A stretch of 64,000 nucleotides of DNA from an uncultured Oligoflexia bacterium (GTDB lineage: Bacteria > Bdellovibrionota > Bacteriovoracia > Bacteriovoracales > Bacteriovoracaceae), in assembly GCA_913058265.1 (NCBI GenBank), contig CAJXPQ010000003.1, positions 124,001 to 188,000 of the forward strand, in the 5' to 3' direction. The notes under the pieces were generated by a model, which was not told the DNA's origin, made no database searches, and was given only the letters and a program-made list of their open reading frames with translations. Both the position numbers and the translations under genes were made by a program. Each line of letters begins with the position of its first letter. Position 1 is the first letter of the stretch. Of this stretch, positions 717 through 25,466 are shown piece after piece.

Positions 717-1586
717 ATGTATAAATATCTAATTTTACTATTACTCGTTTCATGCTTAGAACGTCCAAACTCTAGTGATGTTACTTTTTCAACTCCTGAT
801 TCTCGACGTGTAGAACGAGAAGCTAGACAAGCAGAAAGAGAGCTTCAAATAGAGCGAGAAAGGGCGATATTTCAAGGGAAAAAAGATGAAGCCTGGAATA
901 AGATCGTATTAGATGCAAAAGAATCTTTCCAGCCAATAAAGCCAATGATGTCCAAAAAATGTTTTGATTGTCATGATAAAAATAGAAGACTTCCACTTTA
1001 TGGACGTATTTTTAGAAGAATAAACCCCGTTTATAAGCATCAAGTTGACGGCTTAAAAGGGTTCGATTTCTCAGAAGAATTTCCTATACGAGCAAACGGC
1101 GCAGAAAATACAGACAATGCTTCAAGCCAAATAGCTTTCTTAAAAGCTTTAAAAAATTCAGCATTAGATCGAAATATGCCACTTCCATCATACAAATTGA
1201 TTTATAGAAGTAGAAAAATTTTTAATCGAGATGAAGCAGCTATTATGGCATGGGCCGATCCAATAATTGAAAACCTTAGCGAGTTCAAAAAGGTTTACGA
1301 GGCAGATCTAGATGATGGTTCAATGAGATATCAGGCCAGGAAAATTTTTGAAGCAAAGTGTTTCCGATGCCATGCGAATGGTAAAAACCGTGGTGGCTTT
1401 GGTGAAATGGAAGATATGGATAAGCTTGCTACTTCAAAATATATTAACCTAGAGAATTATGAAGACTCAGAATTATACAAACAAGTTCTTTCTGGAGAAA
1501 TGCCAACAAATATTCGTGAGCGTTTAACTGAAGAAGAACTAGGCCATGTCTTAGAATGGATTAGGGAAGAGTCTGCGTCTCAATAA
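717..1586 (+). CDS. dihaem cytochrome c-like lipoprotein
   Basis: The start is placed at ATG 717 rather than 702 because it gives a compact lipoprotein signal (MYKYLILLLLVSC). A charged, coiled-coil-prone stretch follows (VEREARQAERELQIERERA). Two haem c motifs are visible, CFDCH (~residue 83) and CFRCH (~residue 218), each in a domain of about 100 residues. The second domain ends in 'MPTNIRERLTEEELGHVLEWI', a common end for class I cytochrome c domains. It resembles planctomycete/bdellovibrio-type cytochrome c proteins. It is likely cotranscribed with the upstream cytochrome. Its function beyond electron transfer cannot be read from the sequence. Confidence 0.7.
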   Translation: MYKYLILLLLVSCLERPNSSDVTFSTPDSRRVEREARQAERELQIERERAIFQGKKDEAWNKIVLDAKESFQPIKPMMSKKCFDCHDKNRRLPLYGRIFRRINPVYKHQVDGLKGFDFSEEFPIRANGAENTDNASSQIAFLKALKNSALDRNMPLPSYKLIYRSRKIFNRDEAAIMAWADPIIENLSEFKKVYEADLDDGSMRYQARKIFEAKCFRCHANGKNRGGFGEMEDMDKLATSKYINLENYEDSELYKQVLSGEMPTNIRERLTEEELGHVLEWIREESASQ

Positions 1587-1944
1587 TTATACTCACTTAA
1601 TTTTCTTTTTAATAAGCTCTCTTTGCTGTTTTTATATTCATCTTGAAACAAATTATTCACCAATTCTTGTAAGTGCCACTATTGGTTTTCTTGGAACACT
1701 CATTCCAATAAAAAAATCAACAAATCTTAATAATATCCCTGAAGCTATTTATTCTGGAAGTTTCCTTGGAATGTGCTCTGCTAATAGAATTGAAAGTTAT
1801 AATGAAATAATTCTTGCCTCAATTGTCGGTGCAATCGCCTTTCACTTTCTAATTAAAAGGTTCAATGGATTCGGGGGGAAATTAGGTAGTATCGCTTTTG
1901 TAGGATCACTTACTCTCTTTATTTTAAAGGAGGTGATAAAGTGA
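1573..1944 (+). CDS. small integral membrane protein with an unclear start
   Basis: The frame is open from just after a TAG near 1552 to TGA 1942-1944, which overlaps the GTG start of the next gene. There is no ATG, GTG or TTG until ATG 1771, which would remove most of the protein. CTG 1573, ATT 1600 or ATA 1612 are possible starts, or the true 5' end was lost by a frameshift. The product is hydrophobic (3-4 membrane segments). Its second half (FLGMCSAN..., GFGGKLGSIAFVG) matches the N-terminal membrane part of the next protein (FIGMSSHL..., GLGGALGFSAFIS), so the two are tandem paralogues. The 4-nt stop/start overlap supports translation of both. The family was not recognised. Confidence 0.5.
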   Translation: MRLNNYTHLIFFLISSLCCFYIHLETNYSPILVSATIGFLGTLIPIKKSTNLNNIPEAIYSGSFLGMCSANRIESYNEIILASIVGAIAFHFLIKRFNGFGGKLGSIAFVGSLTLFILKEVIK

Positions 1945-2756
1945 TAATTCTCCTGACTTCATTACTTGGCTCTCTAATGACTTATGAGTTATCTAAAGTT
2001 TCTTGGCTTGGGAGTATTAGGTCATCTTGTTTGTTAACCCTTATATTTTGGCTTGACCTTAATCTTTTAATCTATTTTGATTTTAGTCTCAGTATCGACC
2101 TCTATCTCGCCGCCTTCTTTGGTGGAACGTTTATTGGTATGTCTTCTCATCTTAAGTTTTCGAGGTCTGATGTCGTTTTTGCGAGTATTATCTATTCTGG
2201 CCTCTTTGTTTATTTTCTTCCTTTAGTTGCAGGACTTGGAGGGGCACTTGGCTTTAGTGCGTTTATATCAATTGGGTGTATCTATCTTGCTAAATTAATA
2301 TATTCAAGCTTACGTCCCCAAAGTCTTTCTTTGCGGAAATTTACTTTAAATGACAAAAAGATTGTTTCTGAAATGTTAAAGCATGCTGAAATGATGAAGA
2401 CAACTGGTTTTGGTAGAGTACAAAGCGATGAAGAAGTCATGAGTCGATTAGAGGAGTGGTCTTTAAGCAATGAGATTTGGTGTGCTGTTGAGGGTGAAGT
2501 CGTTATTGGCTGGGGAATGCTGAAAGAGAGTCATAAGTCTAAAGAGATTGGTTATATGGTTCATTATGACCATTGGAACAAAGGCCATGGTAAGTTAATT
2601 GCTAAAAAGCTTTTAGAATTTACTATGCAGGGAGACCTCGTTACGGCAAAGGTTGATCATAGTAATATTGCATCAATCAAAATTTTAGAAGCACTTGGTT
2701 TTTCTAAAGTGAGTGAAGATGAAAAGTTAAGTCACTTTTCTAAGAAATTTAACTAA
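1941..2756 (+). CDS. membrane domain fused to a GNAT acetyltransferase
   Basis: A 271-aa protein whose GTG start overlaps the upstream stop and follows a strong AAAGGAGG ribosome site. Residues ~1-125 are four or five hydrophobic segments resembling the product of the preceding ORF. Residues ~130-271 form a GNAT N-acetyltransferase domain: 'LRKFTLNDKKIVSEML' opens the fold, 'EIGYMVHYDHWNKGHGKL' holds the acetyl-CoA-binding region (canonical R/Q-x-x-G-x-G/A), and 'NIASIKILEALGF' is the typical C-terminal motif. The HWNKGHGK sequence departs slightly from the consensus. The substrate is unknown. A GNAT domain on a polytopic membrane module is uncommon. Confidence 0.7.
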   Translation: MIILLTSLLGSLMTYELSKVSWLGSIRSSCLLTLIFWLDLNLLIYFDFSLSIDLYLAAFFGGTFIGMSSHLKFSRSDVVFASIIYSGLFVYFLPLVAGLGGALGFSAFISIGCIYLAKLIYSSLRPQSLSLRKFTLNDKKIVSEMLKHAEMMKTTGFGRVQSDEEVMSRLEEWSLSNEIWCAVEGEVVIGWGMLKESHKSKEIGYMVHYDHWNKGHGKLIAKKLLEFTMQGDLVTAKVDHSNIASIKILEALGFSKVSEDEKLSHFSKKFN

Positions 2757-2849
2757 TTATATTATTCTTTTTTCCTTTGTGGGATTTGCTTGGTTGTACT
2801 TTAAATATTAAGCTTAAAGTACTAACAGTCATTATCAATAAGGAAATCT

Positions 2850-3935
2850 ATGTTTAAACTGAGCATTTTACTTTTCTCTCTTATCTCTCTTAACTCTTAT
2901 GGAAAAATAAACCCTAAAAAAGAACTAAGTGCATTTGGAAGAGTTTCAATTATGACTCATTATGAAGACTCTGATCTCTCACTTGAAGACAGTGGCTCGA
3001 GAATTGGATTGTATGCGCAGAAGAAACTTACGAAAAAATTTAGGGCCTACGCTAAAGGGGAGTGGGCATTTAACTCTGTAAATAATACTGCGGATCTGAG
3101 CATTGGAAATGATAATAAGTATACAAGTACAGATGCTGCTCAAACTTTTCGTCGCAGACTTGGATTTGTAGCTTTTGATTTAGATACCTATGGGGAGCTA
3201 CGCTTTGGAAAGCAGTGGTCAGTTTATTCTGATGTTTCACATTACACAGATGATTTTAATTTATTTGGTGGCAGTGCATCTGGAACATATAATCTCAGAA
3301 CAGATGGAGGGCAGAGTGGTACGGGACGAGTGAGTCACGGTGTCACTTATAGAAATCAATTCTGGGGAATAAAATACGGACTTCAGGCAAAACTTATAAA
3401 AAATAAAGAACTCACTCTTGATTCAAATAGTAGTGGAGTTACCGCGAAAGACTCTTACGGTATGATGATCCAGAGGGCCTTTGGAAAATTCCATATGGGC
3501 ATTGCCTACAATCAAATTGATCTAGAAGGCGATGAAAATGCTATCAGTGGTTATGATGGTGGTAATTCTTGGTCTAGTGTTTTAGGTCTTAAATATGTTG
3601 GAGATTTTACAACGATCGCCTTTGTGTATAATCGTTCAAAGAATCATGAAATTGATGATGGTACTACGATCTTTGATGGAGAGGGACAAGAGCTTATATT
3701 GAGTTATAAATTTACTGAGAAGTTAAACTTCAAAATGGGTTATAATCTCTTAGCGGATTTTGACAATGATCTTGAGGATAACGAATACCAAAGAGAGTAC
3801 TATATTGTAGGGGCTTCTTTGAAGCCACATCGAGATATAAAACTCTTTATTGAAGGAAGAAGTAATCAGTCCAAAAGCCTAGACGGTGACAAGGGAAATG
3901 ATAGTGCCGGAGTTGGTGCCGTTCTATACTTCTAG
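2850..3935 (+). CDS. outer-membrane general porin
   Basis: A 361-aa protein with a signal peptide (MFKLSILLFSLISLNSYG) and then alternating-residue beta strands throughout. It opens with 'ELSAFGRVSIMTHYEDSD' and ends in Phe (VGAVLYF), the terminal aromatic signature of outer-membrane barrels. Internal motifs such as 'RLGFVAFDLDTYGELRFGKQWS' are characteristic of the Gram-negative 16-strand trimeric porin family; the loop-3 region lies near residues 120-150. The AAGGAA ribosome site precedes ATG 2850. It probably allows passive diffusion of small solutes. It converges with the RRM gene, and their stop codons overlap in the palindrome CTAG. Confidence 0.85.
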   Translation: MFKLSILLFSLISLNSYGKINPKKELSAFGRVSIMTHYEDSDLSLEDSGSRIGLYAQKKLTKKFRAYAKGEWAFNSVNNTADLSIGNDNKYTSTDAAQTFRRRLGFVAFDLDTYGELRFGKQWSVYSDVSHYTDDFNLFGGSASGTYNLRTDGGQSGTGRVSHGVTYRNQFWGIKYGLQAKLIKNKELTLDSNSSGVTAKDSYGMMIQRAFGKFHMGIAYNQIDLEGDENAISGYDGGNSWSSVLGLKYVGDFTTIAFVYNRSKNHEIDDGTTIFDGEGQELILSYKFTEKLNFKMGYNLLADFDNDLEDNEYQREYYIVGASLKPHRDIKLFIEGRSNQSKSLDGDKGNDSAGVGAVLYF

Positions 3936-4408
3936 TTAGGCTTATTAAGATAGTTTAAAAGAGTATTTAGGCCTCTTTCTTTATCTCTACGTCTAGGTCT
4001 AACAACTTCTTCTATTTCAGGCTCTCTTGAACCTTTCTTAACAGCAGAAGTCGTTTCTATTTTCTTAGGCTTTATCGTCGGAACATATGGTGTGCGCTCT
4101 TTAGCAATACTAACCTTAAGTGTTCTTCCATCAAGTTGAGTACCGTTAAGTCCTTTTATCGCCTTTAAAGCATTCTCTTTATTTTTCATTTGAATAAAAG
4201 CAACACCGCGAACTTTATTTGATACTTCAACGTATCTAACAGGGCCGTACTCAACAAATATTTTTTTTAGGTCGAACTCAGATTTTTCGTAATTAAGGTT
4301 TCCAACATAAATAGTTGTAATTCCAGAGTTGGTTTCCATGCGGCCCAATCGTTTGATTTGAGGCTCTTTAGAGTCAGTTGATTCTAATGTTTTCGTATAC
4401 TTTTTCAT
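3932..4408 (-). CDS. RRM-domain RNA-binding protein
   Basis: A 158-aa protein with one RNA recognition motif. RNP2 is IYVGNL (residues 33-38) and RNP1 is RGVAFIQM (67-74), with the usual spacing and the helix 'DLKKIFVEYGPV' between them. The C-terminal ~55 residues are basic and low complexity (RPRRRDKER), a likely extra RNA contact. Bacterial single-RRM proteins are usually cold- or stress-responsive RNA binders. The usual aromatic at the first key RNP1 position is Val here (RGVAF), which may weaken stacking. An AAAGGTG ribosome site precedes ATG 4408. Confidence 0.85.
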   Translation of the reverse strand: MKKYTKTLESTDSKEPQIKRLGRMETNSGITTIYVGNLNYEKSEFDLKKIFVEYGPVRYVEVSNKVRGVAFIQMKNKENALKAIKGLNGTQLDGRTLKVSIAKERTPYVPTIKPKKIETTSAVKKGSREPEIEEVVRPRRRDKERGLNTLLNYLNKPN

Positions 4409-4504
4409 AATGCACCTTTGTAAAAAGTCTATTTCTCACACTTAATACAACTTAAGAAGTAGGTATGTAAATCTTATAAATAGAAATAGTAGTTTATTGG
4501 AGGC

Positions 4505-4897
4505 TTAGTCTTCGTAGTTTCGAGCGTATTCAATTATGAATTTCTTGATTTCTTTATCTGAGATTTCATCTTCTTCAACAATATCAGCTATATATGAAGC
4601 AATCTCTCTCCTATTTAAAATAGGAAGGTAGAGTTTTTGACCAGGCTCTAGCTTTGTAAGGTCACTGTAGCTGAGACCATTTTTCCACATCGTCAGATGA
4701 ACTGGGTTGAGATGTTTATTCTTGACCTTGTTTCCATAGATATTATGAATTTGATAACTATTTAAAATTTGCCCTAGAGTTTCACCTTTTTTAACAATAT
4801 GGACTAAGGAGCGCTGCTTTGCCTCGAACTCAAGATACGAGTTGGCCATGGTTGAGAGTGATAAAGTGAATAGAGTTGCGATAAGTACAATTTTCAT
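4505..4897 (-). CDS. secreted LysM-domain protein
   Basis: A 130-aa protein with signal peptide MKIVLIATLFTLSLSTMA and one LysM-like module (~residues 32-95). The module opens 'VHIVKKGETLGQIL' and closes 'LEPGQKLYLPI', both classic LysM edges. The middle is longer than the usual ~45 residues. The last 35 residues are acidic and helical. It probably binds peptidoglycan in the periplasm; no catalytic domain is attached. The ribosome site AAAGGTC precedes ATG 4897. It stands alone, divergent from the lipocalin gene. Confidence 0.75.
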   Translation of the reverse strand: MKIVLIATLFTLSLSTMANSYLEFEAKQRSLVHIVKKGETLGQILNSYQIHNIYGNKVKNKHLNPVHLTMWKNGLSYSDLTKLEPGQKLYLPILNRREIASYIADIVEEDEISDKEIKKFIIEYARNYED

Positions 4898-5054
4898 AAG
4901 ACCTTTATCGGCAAAATAAAAATAACTTTAAGTGAAAACGCTGGGTGGAACTTCTCAAGTATGCTCGGAGCTAACGAGCTTACAGCATCCTATCTACCTT
5001 TTCTGTACAATTAAAGTCTACTTCTTAGTTATAAGCATCTGGCATGTCCTAGGG

Positions 5055-5060
5055 TATGCT
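5055..5060 (+). promoter_or_regulatory. -10 element, leaderless arrangement before the lipocalin
   Basis: TATGCT ends exactly 6 nt before ATG 5067, so the transcript would start at or next to the A of ATG. There is no Shine-Dalgarno sequence between them. The -35 is poor (TAAGCA at 17-nt spacing). The call depends on the same spacing recurring at five other ATG starts in this window. Confidence 0.4.
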
Positions 5061-5066
5061 GTATTT

Positions 5067-5576
5067 ATGAAAATCATATTACTAATATTTCTTGTTATGG
5101 GGTGCTCTGTGGGAAAACCTATTAGAACAATTGAGAGTGTCAACTTAGATAAATTTCTAACCAAATGGTATGTTATCGCAGGTCGACTGACTTATTTTGA
5201 GAAAGGTGCTCATAATGCAGTCGAAGATTACTCATGGGCAGAAAATAAAGAGCATATAAAAATTAATTTTTATTTTAATAAGGATGACTATAGCGGTGAA
5301 GTGAAGAGCATACCTCAAAAGGCTTGGGTGTATAACACAACTTCAAATGCCCACTGGAAAGTGAGACCATTTTGGCCGCTAAAATTAGATTATATAATCC
5401 TCGACATTGCCGAAGATTACTCATGGACTGCTGTAGGTGTTCCGAATCAAAACTATCTTTGGATTATGGCGAAAGATTGGAAAATGAGTGATGAGAAACT
5501 TCAGGGAATCATTAAGAGATTAAATAATATTGATTATTCAACAAAAGATATTATTCGCGTTCCTCAGAAGTGGTAA
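5067..5576 (+). CDS. Blc-type lipocalin lipoprotein
   Basis: The start is taken at ATG 5067, not further upstream, because MKIILLIFLVMGCS is a complete lipoprotein signal with lipobox VMGC. The mature protein has bacterial lipocalin signatures: 'NLDKFLTKWYVIAGR' (GxW region, with Thr replacing Gly before Lys-Trp) and 'NYLWIMAKDW' near the end. Bacterial Blc proteins are outer-membrane lipoproteins that bind fatty acids or lysophospholipids, often under stress. A second, unlipidated lipocalin lies at 19884. The 3' end overlaps the convergent PLA2 gene by 26 nt. The function of this copy is inferred. Confidence 0.85.
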   Translation: MKIILLIFLVMGCSVGKPIRTIESVNLDKFLTKWYVIAGRLTYFEKGAHNAVEDYSWAENKEHIKINFYFNKDDYSGEVKSIPQKAWVYNTTSNAHWKVRPFWPLKLDYIILDIAEDYSWTAVGVPNQNYLWIMAKDWKMSDEKLQGIIKRLNNIDYSTKDIIRVPQKW

Positions 5577-6030
5577 GGTAATCTGAAAGATTATTAGCAC
5601 AGTGATAAGCAGGCTTTCCAATAATTCTTAGTGCACGGTATAGGTTTCTCGCCCATTTAAGGCAATGTACTTTGTTTTCATCCTTAAGGTCACAAGCTTT
5701 TTCCATTCCATTTAAAAAGTTCATATCACAAGTTTTTTGTGAGAAGCCATTTGACGCTGGTTCATTGTGGTAGCAGAGATCATGTTGAATACAGCTTGAA
5801 TAAAAGATTTCTTTGTATCCACCTGTTGGGCCTGAGCATCCATTATAAAATTGTGTTTCGTTATGACTATTTTTATAGAAGCATGCCCTTGCAGGAATTG
5901 GAATCTTTGATTTGGGACAAAGATGTCCGCGCACAACAGATCCACTTCGCTTGATACAGCTTTCAAGTAAAAGATCTTTTGCATAAGTCTGTGTTGAAAA
6001 TACAATAAAAAGAAGTATTAAGAACTTCAT
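5551..6030 (-). CDS. secreted phospholipase A2-like enzyme
   Basis: A 159-aa protein with signal peptide MKFLILLFIVFSTQTYA. The segment 'SCIQHDLCYHNE' carries the PLA2 active-site pattern C-x-x-H-D-x-C with catalytic His83 and Asp84. 'CSGPTGGYKE' just before it resembles the calcium loop. Several further cysteines suggest disulfides. Prokaryotic secreted PLA2 hydrolyses the sn-2 ester of phospholipids, which would attack membranes of another cell. The start lies 2 nt after the yebC stop with no ribosome site of its own, so it is probably translationally coupled to yebC. It is a plausible T2SS substrate, but that is not shown. Confidence 0.8.
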   Translation of the reverse strand: MKFLILLFIVFSTQTYAKDLLLESCIKRSGSVVRGHLCPKSKIPIPARACFYKNSHNETQFYNGCSGPTGGYKEIFYSSCIQHDLCYHNEPASNGFSQKTCDMNFLNGMEKACDLKDENKVHCLKWARNLYRALRIIGKPAYHCANNLSDYLTTSEERE

Positions 6031-6032
6031 TA

Positions 6033-6752
6033 TTATTCAGTATCTTCTATGTTGGTGTAAACAGCAACGACGTCTTCATCATCATCTAAGTAGGCTTGAA
6101 GCTTTTCTATTTGTTCCATCGTTTCCGCATCAGCCACCTTCGTAGTTGTAGGAATTCTTTCAAGCCCAGCTTCTTCTGGGGATGTTCCAAGTTCTTGCAG
6201 TTTATTCTGAATACTTCCAAATGAGTCCATTGGTCCAATGATCTCAAATAAATTATCTTCTAGCTCTATATCTTCTGCTCCTGCATCGATCATCTCTAAA
6301 GTGAAGTCATCTTCATCTAGCTCTCCTTGAGGAACAAGAAAAACTGCTTTTCTATCAAAGATAAACTCTAGTGATCCGTCTTTTCCAAGAGTACCACCAC
6401 TTTTATTAAAATAACTTCTAACGTTTGAAACAGTTCTTACAATATTATTTGTAGAGCCTTCAACAAAAACAGCAATACCGTTAGGCCCATAGCCCTCATA
6501 AGTTACATCTTCATAACCTTCGGAATCACCACCAAGACCTTTTTTAATCGCTCGCTCAACATTGTCTTTAGGAACATTAAACTTACGACATCTTTCAAGA
6601 GCAATTTTAAGAGAGAAGTTTGTATCAGGATCTCCACCTCCACCACTTTTAACTGCCTTAGCAACATCATAAAGTGCTTTAGTAAAAACTTGACCTCTTG
6701 CTTTGTCAGCAGCGCCTTTTTTGACGGCAATCTTGGCTGATTTTCTTCCCAT
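6033..6752 (-). CDS. yebC: YebC/PmpR family regulator (TACO1 family)
   Basis: A 239-aa protein matching the family along its length: 'MGRKSAKIAVKKGAADKARG' at the N-terminus, 'NVERAIKKGLGG', 'YEGYGPNGIAVFVEG', and 'RTVSNVRSYFNKSGGTLG'. The central acidic part and the end 'LDDDEDVVAVYTNIED' are also typical. Members were described as DNA-binding regulators; more recent work links several to translation of difficult peptide stretches. In many bacteria yebC lies beside ruvC, but here it precedes a PLA2 gene. An AGGAGCTC ribosome site precedes ATG 6752. Confidence 0.93.
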   Translation of the reverse strand: MGRKSAKIAVKKGAADKARGQVFTKALYDVAKAVKSGGGGDPDTNFSLKIALERCRKFNVPKDNVERAIKKGLGGDSEGYEDVTYEGYGPNGIAVFVEGSTNNIVRTVSNVRSYFNKSGGTLGKDGSLEFIFDRKAVFLVPQGELDEDDFTLEMIDAGAEDIELEDNLFEIIGPMDSFGSIQNKLQELGTSPEEAGLERIPTTTKVADAETMEQIEKLQAYLDDDEDVVAVYTNIEDTE

Positions 6753-12390: not shown

Positions 12391-15300
12391 CTAATCATCC
12401 AACTCTTCATATAGTTTAATTTGATCTAAGTATGTTTGAATTTCTCGCGCTCTAATGCTTATATTTGGAGTACCAGCACCATTTCTTATCTGTGAAGTAG
12501 AACCATTGTAGATATAATATAAAAATTGTGACCTATTATCTTCGTTTATATTATTATGTCTTCCTTCCATCCTTTTTAGTTCTGAACTCATCTCTTTGAG
12601 AACAATCATCGTTGCTAATGCTGCATTTCTGGGCTCTGTTAAATTATTTTCATTAATTTCAGGGTAATACTTTTCTGTAAATGAAGTCACATTTTTAATT
12701 TGTGTCAGTCCTCTGGAATTATCAGAGTCATTTCCATCGATCACTTTTTTTGTACTGACAGCAGTTTGACTAATGAATTGTGCGTACTTATCCAAAAGCC
12801 AAGAAGACAGACCCGTAAGAGCGCCTCCAGGTCCTACAGTAGGGATAGAGGCCAAACTTCTTGATATTGAAGTTATCTTTCCTCCTTCTTTTAACTGGTA
12901 GCGTTCTTCCGTTCCAAAGCCACTCTCAACGCCAAAAACGGCATAGGCCATTTGTGCAAGGTCATTATACTCGTTATTTGTTAACCCTAATTTTTCAATC
13001 AGTTCTCTTTTGCTATCTTCTAGAGTTTGAATATATTCTAGGGCGATTGGGTTTCCAGCATGAACAGGATTCATGACAACAAGGTCAATGTCTTTAATTT
13101 TCTCATTTTCTAAAGGAGAGTAGTAATAGTCTCTATTACAAATTTCTCCGGTTGAGCATCGAGATCTAGATGTAGGAGTAAATATAAGCTGACCATCAAC
13201 AACTTTCATTCTACTTACTCTTGTTCCGTCTGCGTTCTCTTCTTCAGGAAGAATGTAGACAGGACAACCTTGATCTGGGAATTCGTTCTTGTATGATTCG
13301 AAATCCTCTTGAGTAAGGTTTAGACAGCCATTGGTGGTTTTATTATCTTCATCATTCCCGTTATTGTACATGGTGTTTCTATGTTCGAGACCAACTGGTG
13401 TTTGATGCATTGCCATAACTGTTTCATATTGGTTATCTGCATTTAGAGGTCCATTAAAGGCCCCTTTTTCAGTTACGAGGGCAAGTAAATTATTATTATA
13501 ATATTCATAATAATCATCATTTGTACTATCTCTAAATTTATAGCTATAGAAAATTCCTGCTGATGTTTTTCCGTTGGTCGCTCGACGACCATCATTATAT
13601 AATTCCTCTAAAAAGATCGTTCTTTTATCACCACTATTAGCACCTAATAAAATTTCTCTTTCAAATAAAACAACTCCTGATTTGTTGTAAACAAAAAGCA
13701 TATGTTTCTTTTTATCTATAATTGTGTAGTAATCACAATCTTCTTTAGTTTTGAAGTTTTTGTGAAACTCAATAATGAGATTTTTATCATCCAAGGCATT
13801 AAGTTGCTCTTCAACATTTTTATATTCTCCATAGTCAATCATATCTGAAGGAGTTCTTTCTAGTCTTTCAGTGATGGGTAAACCTGTAAGAGTACTATAT
13901 CTTTGATCATTATCTTGAAAATTTCTTTCTCCGTTAGTCATGGCGGAATACCACGAGTTTGTATACTGTCTCGATTGAGGCACACTACTAGGTGGTGTTA
14001 AGTTGTTTGCCTCCTGAAAATTTTCTATGGCAGAAGTTTGATCTGTAAGTGGAATTGATCTTAATGTAAGAGGGTTTATCACTTCTGTATCAAGAATAAT
14101 CGCTTTCTTTCCCTCGATTAGAGCTTGCGCCACTATTTGCCTCTCTTCTTGATCAGTGCTTGCGTTAGTTGTTATCAAAGCACTTATTCGACTTGTAATT
14201 TCATCGTCACTTAATCTCGTTCTATTCTCGAGCACATTATTTGTATCTACTTGTGAATGTGAATTTGTATGAAGTTTGTTTTCATAAACATATGTTTTGT
14301 TATTTTCAATTGCTGAAGCTATGGCGTTATTTCTTTGCTCTGTAGATAATTCTGTATACCTTTCAATTGGAGCTTTTTGCTCAACACTTTCTGTTGTGGG
14401 GTAAGATGTAAGTCCTACTATGGATCTATCTATAGCCTGACCAGTGCTGGTATCATATAGTGCACCTCTAAATTCAAAAGATTTTTGTTTGATCTCACCA
14501 TCATTTGCAGCGATAAGACTATAAAGAAATTCGTCATTGAGATCCTTTAAGACCTCTTCTTTATTTGGACCATTATCAATGCCTGCTCCAAAATCTGGAA
14601 TTAGTTTTCTGTAATCATTATATTTACGTTTTAAATTTTCAAACATAGCGACATGTTGAAGATTAAGTCGTCTGTCCATGGCCGTAATTGATGAGGAATT
14701 CATAATACTTTTATATATTTTTTCACCATTAGCTTTTAAATCGCTCAAGTTATATGATTCTGGGAGGTAATAAATTTTATCTTGATATTGAAAGTTTCTT
14801 TCTCGAGAATCAAGAGCTTGAGCAATAGCAAGTAATAGCTCCTTGTTCCCGATAAGGTCTTCTTTGCTCAGAAAATAGGGGTATCTATCAAGAACTGATT
14901 GAGCAAGCTTATCAAAATATTCATCTTGATACGGGAGCAATTCAATTTGAATAATTTTCTCCTGTCCGTCACTACCAATTATCGAGATCTCTTCTGTTGC
15001 AATTGCAGGAAGTATGATGGGTTCTCTTTGGTCTTCTTGATTTATAACTGGCGGGTCTTCCGATGGCATTCTTGAATCATTTGGAATATACTTTTTACCC
15101 ACATGAAGCCAAAAGTCATCATACTTTAAAACCTCTGTCTTATTGAAATCTTGCATATCCTCTATGAAGTTTAATATTGTATTCTCCAATATAGCTTTTT
15201 GATTGTTTTCACCACATTGATTTAATATCATATCCTTACAAGGTCTAGACAAAGGGAGCTTTTCAACAGCTATTGCCAACTCGCTTGTTAAGCTTTCAAT

Positions 15301-15897
15301 TTGCTGCTCAAATGAGCTGATTGAGTCCTTAATTTTCCTATTTTTCATGGAGGAGTTTATCACTTTCGTAAAGTTGAGGATGGATTGATCTTTATTTGTA
15401 TGTTTAAAGAGCCTATGATCAAGAAGTCCATCGGATCTTACGCCTTCTTTTTCGGCCAAAATGGATAGTAATTTTATATCCGACATTTGAATAATGTATT
15501 TTTTTCTCTTTTTAGTATCTGTGATTTTATTTTGTTCGTTTAATATATCTCGAACATAAGGAAGAATTCTTGCAAGTGCAGTTCGAGATAATTTATTTTT
15601 TCGATAGAGCTCTCTTGCTTTTATAAACTCTGGATCTTGGTTTGTATCTATACTCGTGAGAATTTCATCAATTCTATTCTCTAGTTCAAAACTTACAGTA
15701 TCTTCTTTACCTTGTGAGGATGCCCAAGCGAGTCTATGAAGAGTAAGCTTTCCTTGAAGTTTTAATAGCTTTTTTAATTGGGGATGATTAATCTCATTTT
15801 CCATCAGGGTCTTGAGCGCCTCATTACATTCTTCTAGGGTTTCAGCTATTGCCAAACCCTGAAATAATATAAATATAGTAAGTACGATTACCTTCAT
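12391..15897 (-). CDS. giant secreted protein with L,D-transpeptidase-like and lytic-transglycosylase-like regions
   Basis: The start is taken at ATG 15897 because it opens directly with a signal peptide (MKVIVLTIFILFQGLAIA); an in-frame ATG at 15930 would add 11 residues. The mature protein is ~1150 aa. Residues ~20-710 are mostly helical and unrecognised. Residues ~720-890 look like a YkuD-type L,D-transpeptidase: 'YYTIIDKKKHMLFVYNKSG', then 'MAMHQTP' (His831) and 'TTNGCLNL' (Cys858), matching the H...(S/T)xGCxxL catalytic pattern. Residues ~960-1150 look like a lysozyme-fold transglycosylase: 'YAVFGVESGFGT' (Glu991), 'RGLTQIKN' and 'YIYNGS'. Both regions act on peptidoglycan in known families. 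It ends 12 nt after the convergent carbonic anhydrase stop. Confidence 0.7.
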   Translation of the reverse strand: MKVIVLTIFILFQGLAIAETLEECNEALKTLMENEINHPQLKKLLKLQGKLTLHRLAWASSQGKEDTVSFELENRIDEILTSIDTNQDPEFIKARELYRKNKLSRTALARILPYVRDILNEQNKITDTKKRKKYIIQMSDIKLLSILAEKEGVRSDGLLDHRLFKHTNKDQSILNFTKVINSSMKNRKIKDSISSFEQQIESLTSELAIAVEKLPLSRPCKDMILNQCGENNQKAILENTILNFIEDMQDFNKTEVLKYDDFWLHVGKKYIPNDSRMPSEDPPVINQEDQREPIILPAIATEEISIIGSDGQEKIIQIELLPYQDEYFDKLAQSVLDRYPYFLSKEDLIGNKELLLAIAQALDSRERNFQYQDKIYYLPESYNLSDLKANGEKIYKSIMNSSSITAMDRRLNLQHVAMFENLKRKYNDYRKLIPDFGAGIDNGPNKEEVLKDLNDEFLYSLIAANDGEIKQKSFEFRGALYDTSTGQAIDRSIVGLTSYPTTESVEQKAPIERYTELSTEQRNNAIASAIENNKTYVYENKLHTNSHSQVDTNNVLENRTRLSDDEITSRISALITTNASTDQEERQIVAQALIEGKKAIILDTEVINPLTLRSIPLTDQTSAIENFQEANNLTPPSSVPQSRQYTNSWYSAMTNGERNFQDNDQRYSTLTGLPITERLERTPSDMIDYGEYKNVEEQLNALDDKNLIIEFHKNFKTKEDCDYYTIIDKKKHMLFVYNKSGVVLFEREILLGANSGDKRTIFLEELYNDGRRATNGKTSAGIFYSYKFRDSTNDDYYEYYNNNLLALVTEKGAFNGPLNADNQYETVMAMHQTPVGLEHRNTMYNNGNDEDNKTTNGCLNLTQEDFESYKNEFPDQGCPVYILPEEENADGTRVSRMKVVDGQLIFTPTSRSRCSTGEICNRDYYYSPLENEKIKDIDLVVMNPVHAGNPIALEYIQTLEDSKRELIEKLGLTNNEYNDLAQMAYAVFGVESGFGTEERYQLKEGGKITSISRSLASIPTVGPGGALTGLSSWLLDKYAQFISQTAVSTKKVIDGNDSDNSRGLTQIKNVTSFTEKYYPEINENNLTEPRNAALATMIVLKEMSSELKRMEGRHNNINEDNRSQFLYYIYNGSTSQIRNGAGTPNISIRAREIQTYLDQIKLYEELDD

Positions 15898-23884: not shown

Positions 23885-25466
23885 TTGGATATTGAAGATT
23901 TACGAGATAAGCTAGAGCATTCTGGGATTCCAAATAATAATAATTATTATGCTTTTAAGCAAATTAATGCACACCCTGACAAGGTTGCCTTAAAATATCC
24001 AACCATTGAAAATAATAATGTTATATACAGAGAACTTACCTTTAACCAGTTTCGTACAGAGTCTTTGAGATGGGCAAATGGCCTAATATTAGAAGGGTTT
24101 AAGGTCGGTGATAGAATCATTCTTCTTTTTCCTGTTTCAGTTGAGTTGTACCAAGTCATTTTTGCTTGCTTCCATCTTGGTATCACACCAGTCTTTGTTG
24201 ATTTAAGTATGGGAACAAGAAAATTAATTCAGGCAATAAAGGATTCTAAGGCAAAAGGAATCTTCTCCATTGATAAGCTTTTAAAATTCAAATATTTCAT
24301 TCCTGCTATGTGGGGGAAAAAATGTTTTAGCCTAGATCGTAAACGCTTTTTGATAAAGAATCTTTCAGATCTTTACACAGACAGTTGCTACTCGAAAAAT
24401 CAATTAGAATTAGATAACAAGACGACAGCACTCATTACTTTTACCAGTGGATCTACTGGAAAGCCTAAGGGTGCAAACAGGACAATAGAAGTTTTATTAA
24501 ATCAAAAAATCGTATCTGAATATATGTGGCCACATAATAAAAATGAAATTGATATGCCGGCTTTCCCTATGATTGTCCTACAAAATCTAGGTTGTGGAGT
24601 GAGCTCTGTCTTACCAGCGATAGATTTTCAGAACTTTTTAGAGATGAAGCCTGAGATCGTATATTCACAGCTACTGAATCAAAAAGTTTCTAGATTTAGT
24701 GCTCAACCTTTTTTTATTGAGCATCTCTGTGACTATATGCTCGAATCTAAACTCGACACCCCAACATCTATTAGGTCCATTGTTATTGGTGGGGCCGTAG
24801 TATCTAAAAGACTGTGTAAAAAAATTCAATCTGCATTTAGTAATATTGAAGTTAATATCGTTTATGGCTCAACTGAAGCGGAACCGATTGCACATGCAAG
24901 TATTGAAGAATTTTTAAGTAGCGATTCAAGGGGGCTGCTTCTAGGAAAAGTTGTTGAATCTCTGAGAGTTAAAATTCTAAGTATTAATAAAGAGCCGATT
25001 GATATTTCTGATGATTGCTACTGGCAAAATTGGAGAAATTATTTTATGTGGCCCTCATGTGATCACAGAGTATATTGATCGTCATCCAGCTAATGATGAG
25101 CTAAAGCTTAAGGACAGTAACGGCAATATCTGGCATCGTACAGGAGATATAGGGTATTTCTGTGAATCTGGGAATCTCTGGTTAGTTGGAAGGATAAAAG
25201 ATCAAATAACATCAAAGTCAGGACCCATCCCTTGTTATGACCTAGAAGAGGATTTATCATGGAAACTGAATATTGATAAATCAGCATTTGTTGATTCTTT
25301 GAATACTTTATTTATTCAGGGGCATTATAATGAAGCAGAAGTTCTATCTTTCCTGAAAGACCATGGCATTGAGCACTTTAAAATTCATTCAGTGGATAAC
25401 ATTCCCGTTGATAAAAGACATTTCTCTAGAGTTGATCGATCAGAGTTAATAAAACTATTTAGTTAA
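23885..25466 (+). pseudogene. OleC-like AMP-dependent acyl ligase, broken by one frameshift
   Basis: The first frame (TTG 23885 to ~25015) and the second (~25015 to 25466) together give ~526 aa, a normal length for the family. A one-base loss in 'GATGATTGCTACTGG' breaks the join; the unshifted reading would continue ATGKIGEIILCGP. The ANL motifs are complete: P-loop 'TFTSGSTGKPKGANRT', 'VYGSTEAEP', 'HRTGDIGYF' and 'GRIKDQI'. The end 'PVDKRHFSRVDRSEL' resembles the PVDxRHxxK element of OleC, the beta-lactone synthetase/ligase of olefin biosynthesis, rather than the usual GK lysine. It is divergent from the HMGR operon. If the frameshift is an error, the enzyme is intact. Confidence 0.65.

Follow-up and report, generated by a model that had tools for sequence, protein, structure and literature searches.

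The protein encoded on the minus strand of the window (the 64,000-nucleotide stretch of DNA that was analysed) is best explained, with slightly better than even confidence, as a secreted peptidoglycan remodelling enzyme that carries two active sites on one chain. Its C-terminal domain (Glu991), most likely a lytic transglycosylase, would cut the glycan strand, and its YkuD domain (Cys858/His831) would take a tetrapeptide stem and re-link it at the third residue as an L,D-transpeptidase (LDT). Being tethered, the two domains may work on the same patch of wall, first opening it locally and then re-linking it. This is a new domain architecture built from known enzyme kinds, and it is both conserved and mobile. 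A search of non-subscription literature yielded no description of a YkuD-SLT fusion.

LD-crosslinks are inhibitory to lytic transglycosylases, those of phages and predatory bacteria included, and lysozymes are not affected (PMC11390936). An LDT tied to such a cutter was therefore unexpected. The architecture makes it testable whether one molecule can cut and re-link the wall and whether an LDT regulates its own cutter, and the conserved cassette of predator relatives and crAss-like phages, with its lineages in which one half has been silenced, offers natural mutants for both questions.

Organization of the gene and its product

Re-reading of the sequence gave the 1168-aa open reading frame, its frame and the numbering of His831, Cys858 and Glu991 as in the initial annotation. 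The frame starts at the ATG at 15897, and the N-terminus, MKVIVLTIFILFQGLAIA, is signal-peptide-like by sequence. An alternative in-frame ATG lies 33 bases upstream and is less likely, because 11 residues would then precede the signal peptide. The features are listed in Table 1.

Table 1. Features of the gene for the putative two-domain wall enzyme in the window
Feature	Positions	Strand	Residues	Basis or remark
Whole gene, secreted LDT and lytic-transglycosylase-like protein	12391..15897	-	1168 aa	
Signal-peptide-like start	15844..15897	-	1-18	From sequence
Conserved N-terminal domain	15055..15840	-	about 20-281	Recurs in other secreted proteins of relatives
Repeat copy 1	14740..14835	-	355-386	
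Repeat copy 2	14425..14526	-	458-491	
Repeat copy 3	14233..14325	-	525-555	
Repeat copy 4	14044..14136	-	588-618	
Repeat copy 5	13864..13956	-	648-678	
YkuD L,D-transpeptidase domain (predicted)	13180..13773	-	about 709-906	Pfam and model m343c1989370a, YkuD Z 12.1
Predicted LDT catalytic histidine	13405..13407	-	His831	Invariant in seven-relative alignment
Predicted LDT catalytic cysteine in (S/T)xGCxN	13324..13326	-	Cys858	Invariant in seven-relative alignment
Lytic-transglycosylase-fold domain	12400..13074	-	about 942-1166	Model m14b4c094f077 vs Cj0843, MltC, MltF, MltE
Predicted catalytic acid of ES motif	12925..12927	-	Glu991	Sole invariant column, 50 relatives
Possible second acid	12886..12888	-	Glu1004	Kept in 41/43 relatives
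NSRGLTQIK motif	12694..12720	-	1060-1068	Where lytic transglycosylases have GLMQI

The region of ~690 residues ahead of the two centres, described as helical in the initial annotation, is present; it is better described as a conserved N-terminal domain and, behind it, a ~31-residue motif in five degenerate copies. Repeat copies outside the seed set were matched in relatives with E values down to 5e-10, the best of 200 shuffles giving 0.022, and no copy above shuffles was found in the phage protein discussed below. The N-terminal domain and the repeat region probably position the protein; that the repeats do so on the wall is a guess. The N-terminal domain was also found at the C-terminus of other secreted proteins of relatives (L026, L030, L036 and L038).

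The gene stands alone between carbonic-anhydrase-like and DNA-3-methyladenine-glycosylase-like genes (named by eye) on the other strand. Neighbouring genes were not conserved across the genus, so that synteny was uninformative, and an Rfam search of the window gave no match. The genome that holds the window comprises 3.23 Mb. Elsewhere in the window (23885-25466), an AMP-binding-ligase-like gene seems to be broken up, as a frameshift would do, into one frame at 23885-25078 and an overlapping one at 24999-25466.

The YkuD domain

The YkuD-like centre proposed in the initial annotation was confirmed. The Pfam profile PF03734 (YkuD) matched residues 723-874 with an E value of 9.4e-6 and a score of 26.7 bits, which exceeds the curated cut-off (23.4 bits). 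Seven diverse cassettes that keep the LDT site, phage included, were aligned, and His831, Arg840, Gly857, Cys858 and Asn860 were invariant among them. A two-domain model of residues 690-1168 was built (pLDDT 76.7, pTM 0.50, so that the placement of the domains relative to each other is uncertain; pLDDT of the LDT region 42-95 by block). Foldseek matched this model to LdtMt2 (E 5e-5, probability 1.0). For model residues 20-217, VIA-align 2 gave Z scores of 12.1 with YkuD, 11.5 with Csd6, 11.3 with Pgp2, 10.7 with LdtMt2 and 10.6 with Bd1075. YkuD and Csd6 are tied within one Z unit, and at this model quality the loops by which LDTs and LD-carboxypeptidases differ give no discrimination.

In Bd1075, Pgp2, Csd6 and the other YkuD protein of the genome, a Trp stands two positions before the catalytic His, and in Csd6 this residue (Trp158) has been termed LD-carboxypeptidase-specific (PMC10653827). 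In the seven-cassette alignment this position is Ala or Ser, and in this respect the cassette differs from the Csd6/Pgp2/Bd1075 type. The cassette motif R-x-S/T-x-G-C-x-N agrees with TRGSHGCIN of Ldtfm. The missing Trp and the GCxN motif therefore favour a transpeptidase over an LD-carboxypeptidase, as judged from these residues.

The genome contains two YkuD proteins at a threshold of E 1e-3. The second, L178 (G000:C2:302674-303099), is a relative of Bd1075 (E 4e-46), and since it is a Bd1075-like LD-carboxypeptidase, the fusion is the only candidate L,D-transpeptidase of the genome at this threshold. The initial annotation pointed to the many LDTs of predatory Bdellovibrio, a remark at odds with a genome of two YkuD proteins. 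For LD-carboxypeptidases of the Bd1075 type, the substrate is the wall of the predator itself (PMC8938487).

The predicted glycan-cutting domain

The second domain was sought with sequence profiles (Pfam, NCBIfam, PHROGs and PDB), and no match was obtained. The Pfam SLT profile PF01464 did not match the window protein and matched one of 50 relatives, with an E value of 0.089. Foldseek alone, run on a model of residues 915-1168 (43 aligned sequences; pLDDT 82.9, pTM 0.77), gave weak MltF matches amid noise. Because the profiles were blank and the Foldseek result was weak, a second look with VIA-align 2 was needed. It gave Z scores of 10.5 with Cj0843 (3.1 A, 123 residues), 10.2 with MltC, 9.8 with MltF and 8.3 with MltE, unrelated folds scoring 2.8 or less, and residues 253-477 of the two-domain model matched MltF with Z 10.0. 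The domain is therefore of lytic-transglycosylase fold without belonging to the family that Pfam defines. The check suggested in the initial annotation, modelling with comparison of the folds, thus supported both the YkuD and the SLT fold.

The motifs follow each other as in the lytic transglycosylase family: ES at a helix end, GLTQI, then Y..Y.G. A long insert (about 1005-1058) separates ES from GLTQI. Glu991, named as a transglycosylase-like centre in the initial annotation, holds the sole invariant column among 50 relatives. When the domain was compared by hhalign with the genome's own SLT domains, Glu991 fell in register, with a match (P 0.013) too weak to count by itself. The invariance of NSRG.TQIK is partly an artefact, since it served as a search pattern; profile searches recovered TSRGFTQIK variants. 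Taken by fold and motifs, the cutter is most likely a lytic transglycosylase. It follows the LDT domain in the chain, with Glu991 some 130 residues on from the LDT site.

Distribution of the cassette

Relatives were collected with a profile run over whole genomes and by scanning 84,980 species genomes as well as viral contigs. The LDT and the cutter form a conserved cassette of ~470 residues. In the species-genome scan, the closest named match of the window protein was a Halobacteriovoraceae MAG (L041). Of the 129 genomes of Bacteriovoracia, 49 contain the cutter domain and about 16 keep both sites; the latter include most of one genus (G027 and relatives, about 935-960 aa), L066/G076, G100, G103, the window genome and G003. 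The gene is missing from two of the three genus mates of the window genome. The copy of the genus mate G003 (C310; L024/L041) has an in-frame stop just before the LDT histidine, and that of L027 (G012:C8) has one between the N-terminal domain and the remainder; each may be real or an assembly error.

The cassette was also found in two MAGs not named as Bdellovibrionota, from sheep rumen (L079) and from Kiruna (L078, LDT part incomplete), and in crAss-like phage contigs (L084:2687-4558, L082:2156-4558 and L086:1859-4615), where LysM and YkuD were recognized by Pfam. The phage gene sits between the portal gene and that of the major head protein, the latter being 35-38% identical to Crassvirales ones. 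In the same gene slot, the crAss-like phage cr56_1 has other content, with neither LDT nor cutter, and tblastn against INPHARED phage records found none with the cassette. In BFVD, the two-domain model found its best match in the LysM protein of Virus NIOZ-UU157 (A0A7S9XDV9; Foldseek E 3.8e-15, 609 columns). A further phage contig (L040:3281-6958) encodes a 1226-aa protein that matches the cutter domain (ESEYG..., E 1e-16) and is without an LDT. The 1484-aa relative L154:2-4453 (G016) combines live-type LDT residues, a divergent cutter and an added Amidase_2 domain, that is, three wall enzyme domains in one chain.

Loss and division of the LDT domain

Most Halobacteriovorax-type relatives and B. 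bacteriovorus kdesi (L064) keep the cutter, whereas their LDT is shortened to a shell that lacks both His and Cys, and the short Bdellovibrionaceae proteins of the family have no LDT. Because many relatives keep the protein despite having lost the LDT residues, the LDT is dispensable in those lineages. The family tree, built from 63 rows, has four changes of LDT presence, of which well-supported branches force at least three, and in it the phage/rumen/Kiruna clade is sister to the window-protein clade (98/84).

In G074:C76 (L152) two genes, 1311-3317 and 3307-6552, share 14 bases. Of their products, the first (669 aa) combines intact LDT residues (HGIP...STGCVN) with a truncated cutter, and the second (1082 aa) combines an intact cutter with a dead LDT, in which S stands at the His and G at the Cys position. 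This reciprocal split, a single case read from sequence, suggests a need for the two functions together, although they can act from separate chains. The same description, a live LDT with a dead cutter, was considered for L153 and L154 and withdrawn: they retain the Glu, the rest being divergent, and a clear truncation was seen in the first G074 gene alone.

Proposed mechanism and alternative explanations

Both domains are real, their catalytic residues are kept and they form a joint conserved cassette; therefore, cutting and re-linking is the natural reading. The initial annotation had proposed such a single enzyme, and it stands as far as the domains, the residues and the cassette are concerned; from sequence and models we infer that both domains are active and that cutting comes before re-linking. 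Since LD-crosslinks inhibit lytic transglycosylases, the LDT would tend to silence the cutter to which it is joined, unless they work in different places or at different times. Either the LDT limits its own cutter, as a self-limiting remodeller, or it re-links behind the cutter, as a cut-and-reseal device, or the cutter is hydrolytic. The last option would make the cutter a two-acid lysozyme like DslA, with an LDT that may crosslink the same wall without inhibiting it, lysozymes being spared by LD-crosslinks (PMC11390936); it differs from the best explanation in cutter chemistry only. DslA has two Glu 11 residues apart (PMC7511926), and the conservation of Glu1004 is in line with this. However, Glu1004 is replaced by Lys or Gln in two relatives, so that Glu991 is the only invariant acid, and the nearest folds are lytic transglycosylases; we regard a hydrolytic cutter as rather unlikely. 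A similarly modest probability is given to a purely degradative double cutter, in which the YkuD domain would be an LD-carboxypeptidase, an endopeptidase or a DpaA-like amidase. The hydrolases Csd6, Pgp2 and Bd1075 fit the model about as well as transpeptidases do, the phage copies with LysM belong to a virion gene block, a setting that usually calls for degradation, and L154 has its extra Amidase_2 domain; against this, the cassette lacks the Trp that the genome's other YkuD protein has, and its Cys motif is GCxN, as in Ldtfm.

It is improbable that the glycan cutter alone matters and that the LDT is mainly a structural or peptide-binding module with optional catalysis. The dead or missing LDT of most relatives, next to an intact cutter, and the repeated changes of state on the tree would agree with it. 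Yet the window protein, about 15 further genomes and phages retain the His and Cys together with the flanking R, S/T, G and N, and this conservation across divergent lineages implies selection for catalysis; moreover, the G074 pair retains an intact-site LDT in a separate overlapping gene. The prey wall, named as a possible target in the initial annotation, received no particular support. Some predators of the phylum do open a porthole in the prey and close it again (PMC8938487), and the enzyme could be delivered into prey for opening and resealing the hole of entry. However, it is patchy in the class and among genus mates, most Halobacteriovorax-type relatives and B. bacteriovorus kdesi keep the cutter without the LDT, and phages and two MAG bacteria of unstated phylum carry the cassette as well, so we consider this use doubtful. 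A cut-and-reseal tool for wall passage, which Bdellovibrio relatives would apply to their own or the prey wall and crAss-like phages would carry in the virion entry block, is a speculative extension of the cut-and-relink reading. The substrate of the proposed remodelling enzyme is at least as likely to be the own wall as the prey wall.

Comparison with known systems

With the YkuD-family transpeptidases LdtMt2, Ldtfm and B. subtilis YkuD, the window protein has in common the fold (Z 10-12), the catalytic His and Cys and the motif (S/T)xGCxN. Unlike them, it is fused to a glycan cutter, and it is the sole candidate LDT in its genome. Its His-to-Cys spacing is 27 residues, whereas LdtMt2 has a shorter one of 18. 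The YkuD fold is also common to Bd1075, Csd6 and Pgp2, from which the fusion differs by lacking the LD-carboxypeptidase Trp and any match to their C-terminal part, and by having GCxN.

The cutter resembles the GH23-type enzymes Cj0843, MltC, MltF and MltE in fold (Z 8-10.5), in ES at a helix end, in a GL.QI-like motif and in Y..Y.G near the end. It differs from them in lying below Pfam, NCBIfam and PDB detection, in its long insert and in having an LDT partner in the chain. DslA (Bd0314), the deacetylation-specific lysozyme of B. bacteriovorus, is, like the cutter, a divergent member of the lysozyme superfamily from the same phylum, with an ES motif and a possible second Glu; DslA itself is a short lipoprotein without an LDT domain. 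It was not among the fold matches of the cutter model, which is no evidence against the likeness. The protein of Virus NIOZ-UU157 is viral, has LysM in place of the N-terminal domain of the window protein and is annotated as LysM only.
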